Source of the DNA: Oscillospiraceae bacterium
GTDB lineage: Bacteria; Bacillota; Clostridia; Oscillospirales; Ruminococcaceae
Assembly: GCA_017847835.1 (NCBI GenBank)
Contig: JAGASH010000005.1
Span: 372,001 to 436,000, forward strand
Direction of reading: 5' to 3'
Length of the DNA stretch: 64,000 nt
The position numbers and the translations under genes are program-made. Positions 33,331 through 39,733 of this stretch are shown piece by piece. The notes beneath the pieces were generated by a model, which was given only the letters and a program-made list of their open reading frames with translations, was not told where the DNA came from and ran no database searches. Every line of letters starts with the position of its first letter. Position 1 is the stretch's first letter.

Positions 33331-33372
33331 TTGTACCAAAGTCATCTTCGGGAACAAAAATCGTCCCTAGAA
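33331..33372 (-). repeat. Diverged copy of the X repeat downstream of tRNA-Leu
   Basis: Read on the minus strand, CTAGGGACGATTTTTGTTCC continuing CGAAGATGACTTTGG resembles the two X copies downstream of tRNA-Ser (CTAGGGGTGAATTTTTGTGC continuing CCGAAAAATTACTTTGC). It lacks the left hairpin arm of those copies. It lies about 45 bases beyond the Y hairpin, as X copy B does at the tRNA-Ser locus. Confidence 0.5.
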
Positions 33373-33416
33373 CATACTCTGAGCAAAACAGCCCACATCA
33401 AAGCGAGATTTGCGCA

Positions 33417-33488
33417 CCGCGGATTTTTGTGATTTCGTGCTAGTGTGACATTCTGTCACCTGCGAAATCATAAAAAACGCAGAAGAGG
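33417..33488 (-). repeat. tRNA-tail hairpin repeat Y, copy 1
   Basis: In the tRNA sense the element reads CTGCGTTTTTT, then an outer 8-bp stem TGATTTCG / CGAAATCA, a CAG bulge, the inner hairpin GTGACA-GAA-TGTCAC, an ACTAGCA bulge, and ends AAAATCCGCGG. Copy 2 at 39591-39660 has the same inner hairpin, bulges and flanks, but a different, still perfectly paired outer stem. Confidence 0.75.
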
Positions 33489-33510
33489 ACGGTTCTTCGA
33501 ACCGTCCTCT
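33472..33510 (-). terminator. Terminator of tRNA-Leu
   Basis: A 12-bp perfect stem AGAGGACGGTTC / GAACCGTCCTCT with a 3-base loop lies just downstream of the tRNA on the minus strand and is followed, after TCTGCG, by six Ts that belong to the Y repeat. Confidence 0.85.
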
Positions 33511-33520
33511 AGCACGCTGC

Positions 33521-33607
33521 TGGTGCCGGTGGTGGGGGTCGAACCCACACGCTGTTGCCAGCAACGGATTTTGAGTCCGTCTCGTCTGCCAATTCCAACA
33601 CACCGGC
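33521..33607 (-). tRNA. tRNA-Leu (anticodon CAA)
   Basis: On the minus strand the acceptor stem GCCGGTG pairs with CACCGGC, followed by A and an encoded CCA. The anticodon stem ACGGA/TCCGT carries the loop CTCAAAA, giving anticodon CAA (codon TTG). A long variable arm (TGCTGGCAACAGCG) and the T-loop GGTTCGACC agree with a class II leucine tRNA. It has a consensus promoter and a terminator and is transcribed alone. Confidence 0.96.
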
Positions 33608-33621
33608 GATTTTACCCTAAT

Positions 33622-33650
33622 ATTATACCACGTCTGCGCCGATTTGTCAA
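33622..33650 (-). promoter_or_regulatory. Promoter of tRNA-Leu
   Basis: On the minus strand TTGACA (33645-33650), 17-base spacer, TATAAT (33622-33627): perfect consensus 15 bases before the mature tRNA. Confidence 0.9.
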
Positions 33651-33669
33651 GGGGTTTCGCTGAATTTTC

Positions 33670-34215
33670 TCAAAAATAACGATATTCCTTGTAAATTTCA
33701 CCCGAGAAATCCTTCCACAAAAACAAACCGTTTTCGTAAACCATATATCCGTGAGGGCTGTTTTCCTTCGGGATTGACGTCGAGCCTGGGTTCATATAGA
33801 CGAAATTTTCGTGCTCCGTGCACTTCGGAACGTGCGTGTGACCGTTCAGGAGAATATCACCCTTGTGAAGCGGCGGGAGCTTGCTCTCGTTGAAATTGTG
33901 GCCGTGCGCCATAAAAATCGCACCCTTTTCAAGCGCCACAAAAGCGTACTCCGCGAGCACGGGAAACTCCAAAACCATCTGGTCAACCTCCGCCTCGCAG
34001 TTTCCGCGAACACATAAAATGTCGTTTTTGTATGCGTTCAGAAGCTCGATAACACGCTTCGGTGCGTAATCGCGCGGCAGGTCGTTTCGCGGACCGTGAT
34101 ACAGCAAATCACCCAGCAAAAGCAGTCGCTCGGCGTTCTCCTTGCGGAACGCTTCGAGCATTTTCTCACAGTAATACGCAGAGCCGTGAATGTCCGACGC
34201 AATTATCAATTTCAT
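33670..34215 (-). CDS. yfcE: YfcE-family phosphodiesterase
   Basis: This 181-residue calcineurin-like phosphoesterase carries the full motif set: IIASDIHGSAYY, LLLGDLLYHGPRND, CVRGNCEAEVD, FMAHGHNF and LNGHTHVPK, followed by MNPGSTSIPK. The family hydrolyses phosphodiesters with Mn2+; the physiological substrate is unsettled. Its ATG overlaps the yfhO stop (TGATG), so it is co-translated with that gene. Confidence 0.94.
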   Translation of the reverse strand: MKLIIASDIHGSAYYCEKMLEAFRKENAERLLLLGDLLYHGPRNDLPRDYAPKRVIELLNAYKNDILCVRGNCEAEVDQMVLEFPVLAEYAFVALEKGAIFMAHGHNFNESKLPPLHKGDILLNGHTHVPKCTEHENFVYMNPGSTSIPKENSPHGYMVYENGLFLWKDFSGEIYKEYRYF

Positions 34216-37109
34216 CAGCTGTCCTCCTCAAACGTGTCCTCGGGAATAACCGGAAGCTCACCCTCGTCGCTGACTGCCACAAAGCCTTCTTCAAGCTCGG
34301 GTTCAACTGCCTTAACCTCGTGTTCGGCAGCTTTCTCCACGGGAGCGGCAAAATCATCGGGAATTGAACCAAACGCGTCGTCCTCGTCCTCAATATCGGG
34401 AACTTCGGGAAACTCGGGAATGGTTTCGGGCTCTTCGGGAACGCTCTCGTTTTCATCAAAATCCTGTTCCGCCGAAACCTGTTCCGTAAGCGCTTTTTTA
34501 CGCTTGACGTGCTTCAAAATCAGGCTCAGCGCAATCATTATCAGCAGCATTCCAACACCCGCTGCCGTCATAATCAGTCCTGTTTTCATTCCCGCAGGGA
34601 AGAACGTCAGCTTTATCGTGTGCTCGCCCGCAGGAACATTCAGGCATAAAAGCGAGTCGTTTACAGCGGAAGCAATCGTGCACGGCTGTCCGTCAAGCTC
34701 TGCGCTCCAGCCCTCTTCGACGGGAATTGTCGTGAAAAGCGCGCGGCTTTGCTCTGTGTTCACCTTGATTTCAAACGAGGAATGACCTGTTTTGACAACC
34801 TCGCAGTTCTGACTGCCAAGCGTCTGCGTGAACTCCGAAAGCGCTTCCCTGTCAAGAACGTAAAACTGCGCGTCGCCGAAAATCATTTCCGAGTCATTCG
34901 GACGAAGCTCAATCTTGAACTCCTCGCCCGCCTTATAATCGCCGAGATATACTATGCAGTGATTTTCATTTCTGAAATAATTCCGCAGAATTTCCCCGTT
35001 GAGGAACATCTTGCACTCGCGCTCGTATTTTGTGGGAAGGTAAACGTATGCAGCGCCCGATTTCTGCATTTTAACGCTGAACGAAACGAATGCCTCATCG
35101 CTGCTGATACGCTTTTTGTAGGTGTAATAGCCGTCTGTGGTCGAGCCGATTGTGATGTTCTTGTTGTCGAAAACAACGTCGTTTATCGGCGAAAACAGCT
35201 CCAAATCGTCACCGAAATCCCTGCCGGCAAGAATTGACGCAAGACGCTGCTGGAACATAAACGGAGAGTCGCTGTAAATGCTGCTGCCGATAGCCTTTTC
35301 ATCGGCAAGATATGCAATCGGCAAAGCGTCAGGGTTCTTGTAAACACGCGCGTCAAACTGATTTGCCGCGGTGATTTCCTCGTCATACTGAACCGTTCTC
35401 TCGTCCTTTGCGATAACGTATTTCACGCCGAAAAGGTCGTCGGTTAGCAAGGTCGCGCCGTCATAGCGCGAATAGTGGTCGCGCGCGCCAAAGCCCAAAT
35501 CCGCGAGCAGGTTTATTATTTTTGTGTTGTAGGTGCTGGTGGAGTGCGAGAAACCGTAAAGTCCGACGGACATCGCGTCGTTTACCGTGCGATGATACGT
35601 CTTTTCCATTCGGTAGAAACTGCCGTCCTGCTCCCTGACTTGGTTTACAATACTTCTCGTCTGCTGAATATCGTGAGCGTAGCTGTCACGGTCGGAATAG
35701 TACACATCTCCGTGGATTTTGTAGACGTACATTCCCGCGTTGAGCAAAAGCTCCGCGCAAACCGCTATGCTAAGCGCAATTTTCATCGAGGTCTTTCTGT
35801 GGTTCTTCCTGAAGCCCGCCGAAAAAGCCGCGATAATTCCAAGCACAATCAGCGGCACTACAACCACAAGCGTCGTGTTGAAATGCTCACCGCCCGCGTA
35901 ATAATCGCTGAACAAAAGCACTCCGAGCAGTATCAGAAACGCTGTTCCTATTTGCTTCGGACGAACGCTCTCGATTTTCTCAAACGCTTCCGCGCCGAAG
36001 ATTATCAACAGGAAAATCACGGTAAACGAGTAGCGATACGGCATCCACACGGGCACTTGTCCGCCGTGCCAGAGCATATCGACAGGCTTGATGTACATAC
36101 AAAGCGTCATTACACCGAGCAAAAAGCCGCCCGCGATTTTTTGCTGTGCGGGAATTTTCTTGCACATAAAGTAAATCAGCACGAAAATCAGCGCAAGCGT
36201 GCCGCAGTAAAGCATCGGCAGGCCGTCGGGGCGCTCGGTGTCGTAGGTGCCGGGAAACAGCTTTATAAAGCTGTCCGCGATGTTGAAGTTCTCGACAAAG
36301 GAAAAGTCGGGTTTGTGACCGAGCTTACCGTTTTGAAGCGACTTGAACGCGGGGATTATCACGGCGCAGGACATCAGAATTGCCGAAACAGACGAAGCCG
36401 TGTAAACTCCCACAGCTCTGAAATAGTCCTTCACACCGCCGATTTTTCGCGAGGAAACATAGTAAATCGCGTACAGCGCCGAGAAAATTCCCACCATATA
36501 GCCGATGTAATAGTTCGCGATGAAAATGTACAAAACCGACAGCGTGTACAGCAAAAATCCGCGTTTTTGGCAAATGCGCTCAACACCCATTATCACGAGC
36601 GGCAGCGCAACAAGTCCGTCCAGCCACATCGGGTTTATAGTGTGCGCGACAAAATATCCGCAGAGCGCGAACATTACCGAGAACAGAATTGTCGTGTAAT
36701 CGGAGAAACCGCGGTGCTTTTTGAGGTAAAACGCAGCCGAAAGCCCAACCGCTCCCGATTTCACAAGGAGCATCACCATAACGCCCTCGGTGATAAATTC
36801 GCGCGGGAAAAGCCAGATTATGAAGTTGAACGGGCTTGCGAGATAGTAAGCAAACGTTCCGAAAAACTCGCCGGAAAGAGTTCCGCTCCAAGTGTAAAAA
36901 ATGCTCTCTTTTCCGCCCAGAACGTCGTACATATAGTCGAAATATGAAACGTACTGCGCGTTAAGGTCAAGCGCAAGAACGGATTTTTGTCCAATCGGGT
37001 ACACCCCGAAAAGAGCATAAGCCGCGAAAAGTATCGCGGCAGGGATTATAAAACTGAGCCAATAGGCTTTTTTTGATAAAACTATTTTTCCGAAAGAGGT
37101 CTTTTCCAT
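34215..37109 (-). CDS. YfhO-family polytopic membrane protein
   Basis: This 964-residue protein has an N-terminal block of about a dozen transmembrane segments (WLSFIIPAAILFAAYALFG, PLVIMGVERIC, YTASSVSAILMSCAVIIPAF and others). A large extracellular region follows, then a final membrane helix near residue 850 (GLIMTAAGVGMLLIMIALSLIL). YfhO proteins are GT-C-fold membrane enzymes linked to glycosylation of lipoteichoic acid or other surface polymers. The protein ends in a cytoplasmic tail of about 95 residues rich in Glu, Asp and Pro (PEEPETIPEFPEVPDIEDEDD), unusual for the family. The ATG at 37109 with GGTGAG fits better than the GTG at 37121. Confidence 0.9.
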   Translation of the reverse strand: MEKTSFGKIVLSKKAYWLSFIIPAAILFAAYALFGVYPIGQKSVLALDLNAQYVSYFDYMYDVLGGKESIFYTWSGTLSGEFFGTFAYYLASPFNFIIWLFPREFITEGVMVMLLVKSGAVGLSAAFYLKKHRGFSDYTTILFSVMFALCGYFVAHTINPMWLDGLVALPLVIMGVERICQKRGFLLYTLSVLYIFIANYYIGYMVGIFSALYAIYYVSSRKIGGVKDYFRAVGVYTASSVSAILMSCAVIIPAFKSLQNGKLGHKPDFSFVENFNIADSFIKLFPGTYDTERPDGLPMLYCGTLALIFVLIYFMCKKIPAQQKIAGGFLLGVMTLCMYIKPVDMLWHGGQVPVWMPYRYSFTVIFLLIIFGAEAFEKIESVRPKQIGTAFLILLGVLLFSDYYAGGEHFNTTLVVVVPLIVLGIIAAFSAGFRKNHRKTSMKIALSIAVCAELLLNAGMYVYKIHGDVYYSDRDSYAHDIQQTRSIVNQVREQDGSFYRMEKTYHRTVNDAMSVGLYGFSHSTSTYNTKIINLLADLGFGARDHYSRYDGATLLTDDLFGVKYVIAKDERTVQYDEEITAANQFDARVYKNPDALPIAYLADEKAIGSSIYSDSPFMFQQRLASILAGRDFGDDLELFSPINDVVFDNKNITIGSTTDGYYTYKKRISSDEAFVSFSVKMQKSGAAYVYLPTKYERECKMFLNGEILRNYFRNENHCIVYLGDYKAGEEFKIELRPNDSEMIFGDAQFYVLDREALSEFTQTLGSQNCEVVKTGHSSFEIKVNTEQSRALFTTIPVEEGWSAELDGQPCTIASAVNDSLLCLNVPAGEHTIKLTFFPAGMKTGLIMTAAGVGMLLIMIALSLILKHVKRKKALTEQVSAEQDFDENESVPEEPETIPEFPEVPDIEDEDDAFGSIPDDFAAPVEKAAEHEVKAVEPELEEGFVAVSDEGELPVIPEDTFEEDS

Positions 37110-37113
37110 AAAT

Positions 37114-37521
37114 TTACTCACCGATTATTTTTACTATAACATATTTTTCGCGCATTCCGTCAAAATCGCCGTACATTATGTACTGACGAGGACCTAAATC
37201 CAGCTTTCCGTCCGAAATGGGTATCGTCACCGAAGAACCGAGGGCAATCTGTTTGAGGTGCTGTTTTCCGCGGTTTATGTAGTCAACCTCATAATCCGTT
37301 TCAACATCTGTCATCTTGTCCAGCATCAGCTTCCAGTCGTGATACAGGCACTCGTTATCATTTTCGAGGAAAACCGCAGACGTGGTATGCTGCGACGCAA
37401 CAACGCAAATTCCCTCTTTTATCATACTCCTGCGAACACATTCCTCAACCTCATATGACAGATTTAAAAACTGCTCCACATCATCTGTTGTTATGGTGAG
37501 AATTTGCTTGAAATGTTTCAT
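37114..37521 (-). CDS. YjbQ-family (UPF0047) protein
   Basis: This 135-residue protein matches the YjbQ/UPF0047 family over its whole length, with VVASQHTTSAVFLENDNECLYHDW (conserved His) and the C-terminal LDLGPRQYIMYGDFDG. Members are often annotated secondary thiamine-phosphate synthase because one can complement thiE mutants, but the natural role is unclear. It is four bases upstream of yfhO on the same strand. Confidence 0.9.
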   Translation of the reverse strand: MKHFKQILTITTDDVEQFLNLSYEVEECVRRSMIKEGICVVASQHTTSAVFLENDNECLYHDWKLMLDKMTDVETDYEVDYINRGKQHLKQIALGSSVTIPISDGKLDLGPRQYIMYGDFDGMREKYVIVKIIGE

Positions 37522-37542
37522 TTTTTGCCCTTTCCGCGAAAT

Positions 37543-38277
37543 TCACCGCTTCTTTATCGTAAGAATTCCTTCCTGAACAGCCGCGTAAATCGACCTTGCG
37601 CCGCCGTTAATTCCATAAACACCGTTTCCCGAGGGACGACCGCCCGTTATCTCGGGAACGCACGCGCCCGTTTGAGTTTCAAACTCCACGGCAACCGACG
37701 ATTTTTCCGAAACATACACGTCCACATCGCCTTTTCTAGACAAAATCGAGCTGTTTTTCATTGCAGCTTCGATATCAAGCGAAACAAACCCTTCCGTCGT
37801 CGAAATGCTGAACTGCGAAACCGCATTTTCAAACAGAATATCTCCGCTTTCGGTCAGGACTTTCACCAGCCTGCTGTCCACGCGACCGATTTTTACATCT
37901 CCCCCGCCCGTGACAACCGAAATCTCACGATAACTCCTCTCGGGAAGATAAACGCTCAGCCCGAACTTGCTCTGCGAGCCCGGAAACAGCGAAATCACAA
38001 ACTTTTCGTCCTCGGAAATCGAAATGCTGTTGTCACCGTGCTCGATTATCAGCGGAAGATTGTTTTTGTAGCAGACGCGGATTTTATCACCGCTGTACGG
38101 GATTATCTCAACGTTCAGCTTCAGCAGATTAATCTCAATATAATCGCACACGGAAAAGCTCTCGTCACCGTCGGCCGCGTTGTCGTGCTCCGCGTTTCTG
38201 AAAACATAAGCAAGCGCTCCGAAAATCACCGCTGCTGCCGCCGTAATAATCAGCAGTCTGTTCACGATTTTTTCCAT
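37543..38277 (-). CDS. DUF4097-type beta-solenoid protein, membrane-anchored
   Basis: This 244-residue protein has an N-terminal membrane segment (LLIITAAAAVIFGALAYVF) and a beta-rich DUF4097/putative adhesin domain (VVTGGGDVKIGRVDSRLVKVLTESGDILFENAVSQF...TTEGFVSLDIEA), with the regular G-D-V/I repeat expected of a beta-helix. The ATG at 38277 overlaps the preceding stop (TAATG) and has GAGG at the right distance; a TTG six bases earlier is rejected. Such proteins are often encoded with small membrane proteins in envelope-stress modules, as here. Confidence 0.83.
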   Translation of the reverse strand: MEKIVNRLLIITAAAAVIFGALAYVFRNAEHDNAADGDESFSVCDYIEINLLKLNVEIIPYSGDKIRVCYKNNLPLIIEHGDNSISISEDEKFVISLFPGSQSKFGLSVYLPERSYREISVVTGGGDVKIGRVDSRLVKVLTESGDILFENAVSQFSISTTEGFVSLDIEAAMKNSSILSRKGDVDVYVSEKSSVAVEFETQTGACVPEITGGRPSGNGVYGINGGARSIYAAVQEGILTIKKR

Positions 38278-38603
38278 TACCAATTCCTCAAAGCGTCGCA
38301 GCGACGTTTAATTTTCAGAAAAGAACGAGATATGATAAACCCGAGCTTTACAGCTAGAGCGCCGAGAAAAGCCGTCAGAAACGCGCCCGCAAGCCCGCCG
38401 AAAAGCATAACTTCGGGAGCGAGCTGCGTCAGCACGAAATCCGCCTTGAACATCAAAACCGCAACCCCGAGCACCGCCATCATCACCCCGAACGGTATCC
38501 CGATAACACACACCGCAAGCATTGCAAACATCACCGCAAAAACCACGGCAAATACAAGCCAGAAGCCCGTGTATAAAGCGGCAACCTTTAGCTTCTCGCG
38601 CAT
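38277..38603 (-). CDS. Small membrane protein (DUF1700/HAAS-cluster-like)
   Basis: This 108-residue protein is mostly two or three hydrophobic segments (LYTGFWLVFAVVFAVMFAMLAVCVIGIPFGVMMAVLGVAVLM, VMLFGGLAGAFLTAFLGALAVKLGFII) with a basic C terminus. A longer frame to 38708 runs into the upstream gene and is not used; the ATG at 38603 is 7 bases after that gene's stop. Position between a membrane gene and DUF4097 resembles the DUF1700-DUF4097 pairing of Firmicutes, but the HAAS helix-rich N terminus of true DUF1700 is missing. Confidence 0.68.
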   Translation of the reverse strand: MREKLKVAALYTGFWLVFAVVFAVMFAMLAVCVIGIPFGVMMAVLGVAVLMFKADFVLTQLAPEVMLFGGLAGAFLTAFLGALAVKLGFIISRSFLKIKRRCDALRNW

Positions 38604-38610
38604 ACCCCGC

Positions 38611-39225
38611 TCAGGATTCCTTGTTTTCGGTAATCGCGGGAGCTTCCGCGTCAACTTCGGTTGCAATTGCCACGGTTTCTTCAATTCCGCTTGCACCCGC
38701 GAGCGCAATTATATCCGCAGCACAGCCCAGAATAAATGCAGCTCCGAGCAGAATTGCCGAAACAGACGGAGTGAACACCGCGTTGTTGAAAGCATTCAGT
38801 CCGATTACAATGCCAATTCCGACAATCAAAAGTATCGGAATAAGCAGCAAAAACCACTTCTTGAAGCCCGCCTTTTTCATAGCGAACATATTCGGCAGCT
38901 TCAGTACACCGTAAACGCCCGCGAAAATGCCGACAATCAGCGTGAACACGTCCTGCATACTCTGCCACAGGAAAATGAAGCAAGCGCCCGCAGCAATTCC
39001 CAGAACCGCGGTTATCAGCATAGTGATGTTTTCTTTCTTTTCCTTCTTGAAAAGCCACAAAATCAGCGTGATAAGTCCATAAGAAGCAGCGATTATTCCG
39101 ATAATTCTAAGAACAATCTCCAATCCCCTGTCGTTGTAGACTATAAGGAAAAGTCCGCCGATAAGCTCCACCAGCGCCAGAAGCACCAGATTTCTTCTCA
39201 AACCCTTCAATTTATTAAGCTCCAT
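38611..39225 (-). CDS. Polytopic membrane protein (DUF308/HdeD-like)
   Basis: This 204-residue protein has about six transmembrane helices in pairs (LVLLALVELIGGLFLIV, IVLRIIGIIAASYGLITLILWLF, ITMLITAVLGIAAGACFIFLW, FTLIVGIFAGVYGVLKLP, WFLLLIPILLIVGIGIVIGL, VSAILLGAAFILGCAADIIAL) and an acidic tail. The internal repeat of helix pairs recalls the DUF308/HdeD fold. It is the first gene of a three-gene set ending in the DUF4097 protein; its function is unknown. Confidence 0.72.
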   Translation of the reverse strand: MELNKLKGLRRNLVLLALVELIGGLFLIVYNDRGLEIVLRIIGIIAASYGLITLILWLFKKEKKENITMLITAVLGIAAGACFIFLWQSMQDVFTLIVGIFAGVYGVLKLPNMFAMKKAGFKKWFLLLIPILLIVGIGIVIGLNAFNNAVFTPSVSAILLGAAFILGCAADIIALAGASGIEETVAIATEVDAEAPAITENKES

Positions 39226-39284
39226 TTTATAGCCCTTCTTTCAAAGTTTTTCAACAGCACCCGCTGTCCGATATATACATATTT

Positions 39285-39313
39285 ATTATAACTCTTTTTC
39301 CCGCTATTGTCAA
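39285..39313 (-). promoter_or_regulatory. Promoter of the 39225-37543 membrane gene cluster
   Basis: On the minus strand TTGACA (39308-39313), 17-base spacer ATAGCGGG... and TATAAT (39285-39290). Confidence 0.85.
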
Positions 39314-39361
39314 TACCTACGCAATCTTTTTGACTTTTTTAATGATTTTTAATTTAACCCC

Positions 39362-39390
39362 TTGACAAAACCGACGTTTTCGTGTATAAT
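39362..39390 (+). promoter_or_regulatory. Promoter of tRNA-Ser
   Basis: TTGACA (39362-39367), 17-base spacer, TATAAT (39385-39390): perfect consensus, 27 bases before the mature tRNA. Confidence 0.9.
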
Positions 39391-39417
39391 ATTAGTGTTG
39401 CGATTGCAGCAATATAT

Positions 39418-39506
39418 GGAAGCGTATCGAAGTGGTCATAACGGGACTGACTCGAAATCAGTTGTACCTCACGGTACCGTGGGTTCGAATCCCACCGCTT
39501 CCGCCA
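39418..39506 (+). tRNA. tRNA-Ser (anticodon CGA)
   Basis: Acceptor stem GGAAGCG pairs with CGCTTCC, then G and an encoded CCA. The anticodon loop CTCGAAA within ACTGA/TCAGT gives anticodon CGA (codon TCG). A long variable arm (TGTACCTCACGGTACC) and T-loop GGTTCGAATCC identify a class II serine tRNA. A 15-base palindrome (CCAGCG-TGA-CGCTGG) directly follows the CCA. Confidence 0.96.
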
Positions 39507-39526
39507 CCAGCGTGACGCTGGACCCT

Positions 39527-39568
39527 ATTTCGCCCCTAGTTTCTGCTAGGGGTGAATTTTTGTGCCCG
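39527..39568 (+). repeat. X repeat copy A, with tRNA-Ser terminator hairpin
   Basis: This 42-base unit contains the stem CCCCTAG / CTAGGGG (39533-39539, 39546-39552) followed by TGAATTTTTGTGCCCG. It works as the rho-independent terminator of tRNA-Ser and is repeated with one mismatch at 39692-39733. Confidence 0.85.
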
Positions 39569-39590
39569 AAAAATTACTTTGCAAGATTTT

Positions 39591-39660
39591 TCCTCTGCGT
39601 TTTTGTCGTTTTTGCAGGTGACACGATGTCACACTAGCACAAAAACGACAAAATCCGCGG
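39591..39660 (+). repeat. tRNA-tail hairpin repeat Y, copy 2
   Basis: It reads CTGCGTTTTT, outer 10-bp stem GTCGTTTTTG / CAAAAACGAC (39605-39614, 39640-39649), CAG bulge, inner hairpin GTGACA-CGA-TGTCAC, ACTAGCA bulge, and ends AAAATCCGCGG. It has the same order and orientation relative to its tRNA as copy 1 at 33417-33488. The window-scale ORF crossing it is not credible. Confidence 0.75.
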
Positions 39661-39691: not shown

Positions 39692-39733
39692 ATTTCGCCC
39701 CTAGTTTCTGCTAGGGGTAAATTTTTGTGCCCG
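39692..39733 (+). repeat. X repeat copy B
   Basis: Near-identical (41 of 42 bases) to copy A at 39527-39568, including the CCCCTAG/CTAGGGG hairpin and ATTTTTGTGCCCG. The rest of the 39507-39785 region holds only these repeats and no gene. Confidence 0.85.

Follow-up and report, generated by a model that had tools for sequence, protein, structure and literature searches.

In Escherichia coli, the transfer RNA (tRNA) gene tyrT is followed by the tandem tail repeats of the rtT RNA, long units that are repeated at one locus and echo the tRNA 3' end. Short intergenic palindromes forming mosaics with other palindromes are represented by the REP and BIME sequences (PMC2817692, PMC3733652, PMC12306157), where the copy number of REP elements is usually over 100 and the units of BIMEs are in alternating orientation (PMC2817692). 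In the archaeon Methanopyrus kandleri, about half of the tRNA genes are followed, at a fixed distance of about 10 bp, by a palindrome (CGTTA-N9-TAACG) that has been proposed as a 3' maturation signal (PMC5217627) and may be regarded as the nearest published parallel found to the case presented here. In addition, the integrating element ICEKp1 pushes a tRNA terminator to its own far end (PMC13023037). In this study, a palindromic repeat is described, in the following termed element C, which occurs twice in a stretch of 64,000 nucleotides (nt) from an Oscillospiraceae bacterium, once behind a tRNA-Leu and once behind a tRNA-Ser gene. The stretch, hereafter the window, corresponds to C8:372001-436000 of a 23-contig assembly of 2.18 Mb (GCA_017847835.1, here genome G000). 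According to the favoured explanation, which has about an even chance of being right, element C represents a family of palindromic DNA repeats located mostly in tails of tRNA and transfer-messenger RNA (tmRNA) genes with predicted terminators, with the tails having likely been exchanged and the arms of the palindrome being kept complementary probably by template switching more than by selection on RNA.

As in the tyrT case, repeated units behind tRNA genes echo the tRNA 3' end, but here they are dispersed over many tRNAs and CCA alone is echoed. With the REP and BIME sequences, element C shares its nature as a short intergenic palindrome combined with other palindromic modules (A and B, see below). 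However, only at least 20 copies were found in G000 (best 150 of 3980 candidate places scored), all copies behind tRNA and tmRNA genes of this genome run with the gene instead of alternating, their place is the tRNA/tmRNA tail, and neither a GTAG/CGTC tag nor a Y1 transposase was found. In the REP/BIME literature consulted (PMC2817692, PMC3733652, PMC12306157), no mention of a tRNA-tail family was found, and no description of a dispersed repeat tied to tRNA/tmRNA tails was found in the literature on palindromes behind tRNA genes. Like the M. kandleri motif (PMC5217627), element C is a palindrome that immediately follows many tRNA genes of a single genome, but it is 49–67 nt long, mostly stands behind another hairpin and has partly variable arms. 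Finally, when ICEKp1 integrates at the 3' end of a tRNA gene, the former tail is shifted to the distal end of the island (PMC13023037), and a similar shift may have occurred here; in contrast to the single events with one terminator described for ICEKp1, the tails of many tRNAs are mosaics of repeated units including the palindrome.

Element C Is Repeated Behind tRNA and tmRNA Genes

On the tRNA strand, the consensus of element C starts with CTGCGTTTT, followed by six variable bases, TTTCG or a similar motif and a loop region, and ends with CGAAA, six bases complementary to the variable ones and AAA-G/T-CCGCGG. Two forms can be distinguished. In the long form of 65–67 nt, to which both window copies belong, the loop region contains the inner hairpin GYGACA-N3-TGTCRC, while in the short form of 49–50 nt it mostly reads CACAAGCA or CACTTCGCA. 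A BLAST search of G000 with the Ser copy gave 10 places, the query included, and a covariance model (R1, with alignment A1, both built from 15 of the 20 G000 copies) revealed 19 strong places (E ≤ 2.9e-8). A twentieth copy behind tRNA-Gly(ccc) is matched only weakly (E 0.27), being split by an inserted hairpin (L010, G000:C22:16390-16465, with a GC-rich hairpin in the 5' arm). The family thus comprises at least 20 members in this genome, a minimum because only the 150 best of the 3980 candidate places were scored; likewise, the covariance searches of the other genomes cover the best 121–150 of some thousands of candidate places each, so that all copy counts are minima, and those over 40 genomes were run with stricter filters.

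Of the 20 G000 copies, 16 share the strand of an intact tRNA or tmRNA gene and follow it at a distance of 29–134 nt. Three more follow tRNA 3' fragments, one of tRNA-Leu on contig C7 and a tandem pair after a tRNA-Asn fragment on C8, and one copy (C8:29423) stands after tail modules without a tRNA. Not only the 16 copies behind intact genes but also the fragment-associated ones are oriented in the tRNA direction. Across the genomes, fragments were recognised by eye, with weak cases at L067, where the fragment has 10 bases, and L069, where it has about 8. Conversely, a whole copy is present in 14 of the 28 tRNA tails of G000, including the one interrupted by the insert. When treating copies as independent, the probability of finding at least 15 of 20 within 300 nt behind 29 genes by chance is about 5e-37. 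The assignment as a tRNA-tail element, one of three possibilities raised in a preliminary description of the two window copies, is therefore strongly supported in G000. In the related genome G019, 7 of 8 listed copies follow an intact tRNA or tmRNA gene.

For the analyses across genomes, a set of 38 copies was used (20 short and 18 long rows). Outside this set are L010, L264 with its inner palindrome replaced, L070, which is truncated by a contig end, L247, which is degenerate, and the weak match G016:C1:5440. Chance matches of the regular expression were dropped by eye, and L028, a real copy missed by it, was retained. Besides complete copies, G000 contains half elements (L018, L020, L022, and L028) in which only the 3' or the 5' arm is joined to other tail sequence; deletions between repeated units would give such products. 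In the tRNA-Leu(taa) tail of G019 (L264), an entirely different palindrome stands between the constant outer ends CAGCGTTTT and AAAAGCCGCGG.

The Two Copies of the Window

The repeat of about 70 bases noted previously behind both tRNA genes is real, and folding sets the limits of the unit to 33482-33417 on the minus strand (Leu) and 39595-39660 on the plus strand (Ser). The features of both loci are as follows.

33521..33607, minus strand: tRNA-Leu (CAA), the gene before the first copy (ARAGORN; Rfam RF00005)
33484..33510, minus strand: module B, a GC-rich terminator-like hairpin directly before the Leu element; a similar hairpin precedes many other copies
33417..33482, minus strand: element C, long form of 66 nt, Leu copy (covariance model 82.9 bits; BLAST; folding)
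33468..33473, minus strand: 5' arm of the variable six-base block of the Leu copy, TTATGA
33445..33459, minus strand: inner hairpin GTGACA-N3-TGTCAC of the Leu copy (sequence; pair counts)
33427..33432, minus strand: 3' arm of the variable block of the Leu copy, pairing with the 5' block except for one A.C
33341..33391, minus strand: module A remnant (CTAG-type terminator hairpin) behind the Leu copy (E 5e-5, 79% identity)
39418..39506, plus strand: tRNA-Ser (CGA), the gene before the second copy (ARAGORN)
39508..39570, plus strand: module A, hairpin CCAGCGTGACGCTGG directly after the CCA of tRNA-Ser, then the CTAG terminator hairpin
39595..39660, plus strand: element C, long form of 66 nt, Ser copy (covariance model 88.9 bits; BLAST; folding)
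39604..39609, plus strand: 5' arm of the variable six-base block of the Ser copy, TGTCGT
39618..39632, plus strand: inner hairpin GTGACA-CGA-TGTCAC of the Ser copy (sequence; pair counts)
39645..39650, plus strand: 3' arm of the variable block of the Ser copy, all six bases paired with the 5' block
39692..39733, plus strand: second module A terminator hairpin behind the Ser copy

Each copy lies 3' of its own tRNA gene and has the same direction, and in both cases a terminator-like hairpin is placed between the tRNA and the element. These hairpins A and B of the window were recognised by the terminator scan. An intrinsic terminator is a GC-rich hairpin with a T run immediately after it; no run of four or more T directly follows any real copy of element C, which lacks this feature. 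The module A remnant behind the Leu copy is, as judged by eye, homologous to the tail directly after tRNA-Leu(CAA) in G016. The stem of element C consists of about 20 pairs, CUGCG/CGCGG and then a U-rich/A-rich helix containing the variable part. Perfect outer stems of 8 and 10 bp had been proposed for the two copies; over its full length, the stem shows one U.U in both copies and an additional A.C mismatch in the Leu copy. Compared with shuffled sequences, the window copies fold with z values of -6.6 and -5.1, none of 200 shuffles being equal, and three example elements with -24 to -31 kcal/mol each beat all 200 shuffles.

Pairing of the Arms

Covariation between the arms is strong, amounting to 0.270 in the 15 G000 copies (versus 0.089 shuffled and at most 0.069 slid) and to 0.430 in 18 short copies (versus 0.127 shuffled and at most 0.121 slid), the latter being the distinct short rows from G000, G016, and G019 after dropping two duplicates. 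Variation is concentrated in six adjacent stem pairs, the variable block. Among the 108 cells of this block in the 18 short copies, 107 are paired with 52 double changes, one is unpaired and not a single G-U is present. The terminator hairpins of the same tails behave differently. In 55 hairpins of type A, 29 G-U, 4 A-C, and 18 other mismatches were counted, versus 6 G-U, 11 A-C, and 26 other mismatches in the element stems of the 38 copies (Fisher 2.4e-4 for the ratio of G-U to A-C).

The expectation that the outer arms of further copies would still pair holds only in part, with breaks in the variable block of 10 of 18 long copies versus 2 of 20 short ones (Fisher 0.0045). The two broken short copies are identical tandem copies with one A.C mismatch, and L057, counted as broken with several mismatches because of a one-base deletion, has only one in a gapped alignment. 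In 6 of the 10 broken long copies, the 3' block is known as the 5' block of another copy, and in three of these it differs by 3–5 bases from the own 5' block, a pattern that would result if chimeras had been joined within the inner hairpin. Furthermore, 7 of 21 block types were found in more than one genome, and the block at one and the same gene can differ between genomes, reading TTAAAT in G016 and TGGCAA in G019 behind tRNA-Thr(ggt), and TTTCAT in G000 and TTAAAT in G016 behind the tmRNA gene. In the tandem copies behind tRNA-Tyr of G016, the loop is nearer to the inverted than to the direct consensus (score 12 versus 5).

Multi-base double changes and loop inversions have been described for template switching (PMC8794818), and hence element C resembles the template-switch hairpins of that study in showing both in perfect stems, although these are from ribosomal RNA genes and not from a dispersed repeat. 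Taken together, the double changes without wobble, the broken long copies, the shared blocks and the inverted loop favour copying of one arm onto the other. Changes on both sides of the stem had been taken as a mark of selection on the structure of RNA or single-stranded DNA, which cannot be concluded here, since multi-base double changes without G-U, chimera-like long stems and the inverted loop fit arm copying at least equally well. Selection on RNA is not demonstrated by pairing in this element.

Tails Are Mosaics of Units

When comparing the tRNA tails of G000, G016, G019, and G001 side by side, many tail units turned out to start exactly after the CCA of the tRNA. Module A consists of a small hairpin directly after CCA and a terminator-like hairpin with CTAG at its tip plus a T run, while module B is represented by GAGGACGG...CCGTCCTC and usually precedes element C, if not replaced in this position by a similar hairpin. 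Modules A, B and the element occur in changing combinations, including tandem arrangements of module A with at least three units behind tRNA-Leu(cag) and three behind tRNA-Arg(cct) of G016. The tails of G001 are of similar build, also with tandems, but different in sequence, and none of 24 contains a copy. In G000, 16 of 25 module A matches are located in tails of tRNA, tmRNA or tRNA fragments and one beside the copy lacking a tRNA; as the other eight lie elsewhere, one of them behind a further tRNA fragment, this module is not confined to tRNAs. An oriented count of hairpin B gave 20 hairpins, one of which (L060) is a spurious tRNA T-arm.

Further repeated structures were observed in these tails. 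A second, unrelated unit of about 270 nt, ending with the inverted T-arm-like GGTTCAAATCCCC, is present in G000 (C22:134024-134295, L027, and C12:3443-3712, L025) as well as in its relatives (G016:C4:164460, C5:155848, and C8:111691; G019:C26:7542; G001:C48:573). Six of the seven places are directly behind tRNA-Ser(tga), tRNA-Asn, tRNA-Pro(tgg) or tRNA-Gln(ctg), the seventh being the one on G016:C8. Tandem terminator-like units of roughly 90–105 bp with CCA-like or CA junctions in between follow single tRNA genes at L254 and L241 (G016), L263 (G019), and L287 and L283 (G001). Moreover, a similar tRNA 3' piece, GAACCAGAGGGTCG-GGGTTCGAATCCCTC, stands before the element or module A in three genomes (L051 in G012, L060 in G016, and L292 in G000), apparently representing old island ends.

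Turnover at the Same tRNA Gene

That the repeat might be a mobile palindrome, as had also been suggested, is supported insofar as it is present or absent at the same tRNA in sister genomes. Behind tRNA-Leu(CAA), hairpin B and the element are found in G000, but neither in G016, where the tail has only module A, nor in the more distant G001, while the terminator remnant and the following sequence are homologous between G000 and G016. The tail of tRNA-Ser(CGA) contains one long copy in G000, both a short and a long copy in G019, and none in G016. The tRNA-Pro(cgg) gene is directly followed by B and the element in G000 and G019, and by module A in G016; on another contig of G016, a B-element unit is preceded by a 10-base tRNA-Pro end and shares the block CTCCGT with the tRNA-Pro(cgg) unit of G019. 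The genes for tRNA-Thr(cgt) and tRNA-Ser(gga) have element-bearing tails in G000 and a different tail in G016, where integrase-like frame matches, both below the model cut-off, start within about 300 nt and at about 120 nt behind them, respectively. In G000, a Phage_integrase gene adjoins the tRNA-Asn fragment. From the tail differences at the same tRNAs and the integrase-like genes, we infer that islands and recombination between repeated units may exchange tails and carry the palindrome along.

Distribution Among Genomes

The covariance search gave matches at E ≤ 0.001 in 6 of 43 genomes of the genus and none in the other 37. Many copies are present only in G000, G016, and G019, the latter two being the nearest relatives of G000 according to the HD-domain protein adjoining the Ser copy (89–91% identity). 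A single copy in G012 is located behind a tRNA 3' fragment, and G018 and G051 have weak matches, of which those inspected in G018 are not behind tRNAs. In G018, short-form-like hairpins (L053, L056, and L062) stand in a repeated context beside another GC-rich hairpin, again not behind tRNA genes, and could represent either a distantly related or a separate repeat. Sixteen genomes from other families of the order gave no match with the covariance model. A pattern scan of genome contigs yielded at least 111 stretches, all of which were scored; among the matches listed, three are real, in G016 or G019, and the best remaining stretch reached 28.2 bits. Searches in phages and plasmids were without a match, IMG/VR gave 10 stretches, the best at 22.4 bits and none convincing, and further viral-contig searches gave zero. 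An origin from phages, plasmids or viral contigs was therefore rejected.

Proposed Origin and Alternative Explanations

According to the favoured explanation, tail segments with predicted terminators would be exchanged and recombined among tRNA loci, and the unit would have been moved by integration at the tRNA 3' end and by recombination between copies. Transcription would be ended by hairpins A and B, while template switching would copy one arm of the palindrome onto the other and thereby renew the stem. The palindrome itself would mostly be a passenger, with CTGCGTTTT possibly providing part of the T tract behind hairpin B. The lack of a T run, the preceding terminator-like hairpin and the absence from half of the G000 tails argue for this role; that element C is a passenger repeat of the tail units, kept palindromic by hairpin-directed mutation, could just as well prove right as wrong. 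For the terminator-like hairpins an obvious use is predicted, whereas none can be demonstrated for the palindrome.

Several points weigh against this explanation. In G016, the tail address is less well supported, as an intact tRNA or tmRNA gene precedes only 5 of the 11 copies listed, three stand behind fragments (two of only 8–10 bases), and for three no tRNA was recognised. Three of the six broken long copies with shared blocks have a one-base difference only and may be simple mutations. In the table of the template-switching study, single double-changes as well as a double change plus loop inversion are listed as not significant (PMC8794818). Template switching alone does not explain the sharp six-base limit of the variable block. 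Wobble is not absent from the element: two positions of the stem foot are mostly U.G on the transcribed strand, the short copies have five further G-U or U-G cells outside the block, and in the long copies 2 G-U are found among the 108 cells of the block, 27 of which are unpaired. Between the tRNA-Leu(taa) tails of G000 and G016, 79 aligned bases contain two double changes and no single one, a pattern that selection would also give. The stem-foot wobble, the 2 G-U cells of the long form and these double changes are compatible with RNA selection. With respect to the exchange, neither integration nor excision was observed, and no target-site duplication or exact empty-site junction could be fixed. 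Tail exchange is, moreover, deduced from few genomes, namely three many-copy carriers, one of them 73% complete.

The main rival explanation is that the hairpin works as RNA. Once transcription has read through the first terminator, the folded tail would block the 3' end, provide a processing site or form a tRNA-linked small RNA, with its pairing being selected. This reading is rather unlikely, albeit to be taken seriously in view of the strong covariation in both the G000 and the short copies, the direction shared with the tRNA, the U.G pairs at the stem foot and the tRNA-Leu(taa) comparison with two paired double changes. In addition, small RNAs between double terminators of E. coli rRNA operons provide a parallel (PMC8144298). 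However, selected RNA pairing would not be expected to leave the block of the short copies without any G-U in 108 cells or to tolerate its breakage in 10 of 18 long copies, and the element is missing from most tRNA tails of G016 and G001. For the small RNA proposed previously no evidence was obtained: a terminator-like hairpin stands ahead of both window copies, and in Rfam 15 only tRNA and tmRNA reach the cut-off in the window and four loci. A known RNA family was accordingly rejected, since no other Rfam family reaches the cut-off.

An improbable alternative is a miniature transposon of the REP/MITE type, inserting beside the terminators of stable RNAs with a transposase supplied in trans. 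A short palindromic repeat with about 20 copies, its presence or absence at one tRNA in sister genomes and the inserted hairpin carried by L010 itself are in line with such mobility. Yet the element usually follows hairpin B or a similar one in a single orientation, and at tRNA-Leu(CAA), where the junctions of the element-free G016 tail are changed, no target duplication was seen by eye. The Y1 transposase family PF01797 was found in none of 5 genomes (the control being positive in 5 of 14 known genomes), and none of the 38 copies has a GTAG or CGTC tag within 8 nt of either end, as counted inside the copies. The absence of both tag and Y1 transposase led to the rejection of a REP/RAYT identity.

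A still smaller probability applies to a system of small non-coding cassettes by which this lineage would swap tails site-specifically behind its tRNA and tmRNA genes, with every cassette beginning precisely at the CCA end and the palindrome with its free six-base block serving as single-stranded hairpin for a putative recombinase. Even more doubtful is a recombination site read as folded single-stranded DNA in the manner of integron attC, by which tail cassettes would be joined behind tRNA genes. The attC sites of integrons carry the R box pair RYYYAAC ... GTTRRRY, which in this form is present in 0 of 38 copies, and the integron integrase TIGR02249 was not found above the cut-off in 3 genomes. 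Matches below the cut-off, obtained in all three as in all 14 controls, are other tyrosine recombinases. On these two features, an integron attC site was rejected. An attC-like site would account for the six-base block of conserved structure and free sequence between constant tracts, for its Watson-Crick pairing without G-T in the short form and for the cassette-like mosaics, but the visible joins are at CCA-like sequence or in the inner hairpin and not at one point of the element, and the broken long copies indicate that pairing can be lost. Least probable of all is a role as double-stranded DNA or cruciform, for example a supercoil sink or protein site of the kind proposed for REP/BIME, for although location behind stable-RNA genes assumed to be strongly transcribed, a perfect variable block in 18 of 20 short copies and constant T and A tracts would fit, half of the G000 tRNA tails lack a whole copy, 37 of 43 genus genomes have no match at E 0.001, and direction should be irrelevant but is constant.

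Implications

For a dispersed palindromic repeat, the address of element C is unusual, with 19 of 20 G000 copies being located in the 3' tails of tRNA and tmRNA genes, fragments included. The family offers a natural test of whether "compensatory" changes prove selection on RNA, as the same tails contain terminator hairpins with the wobble signature expected of such selection and a palindrome whose variable block is without it. In these genomes, tRNA tails undergo turnover as whole units, to which integrating islands probably contribute.

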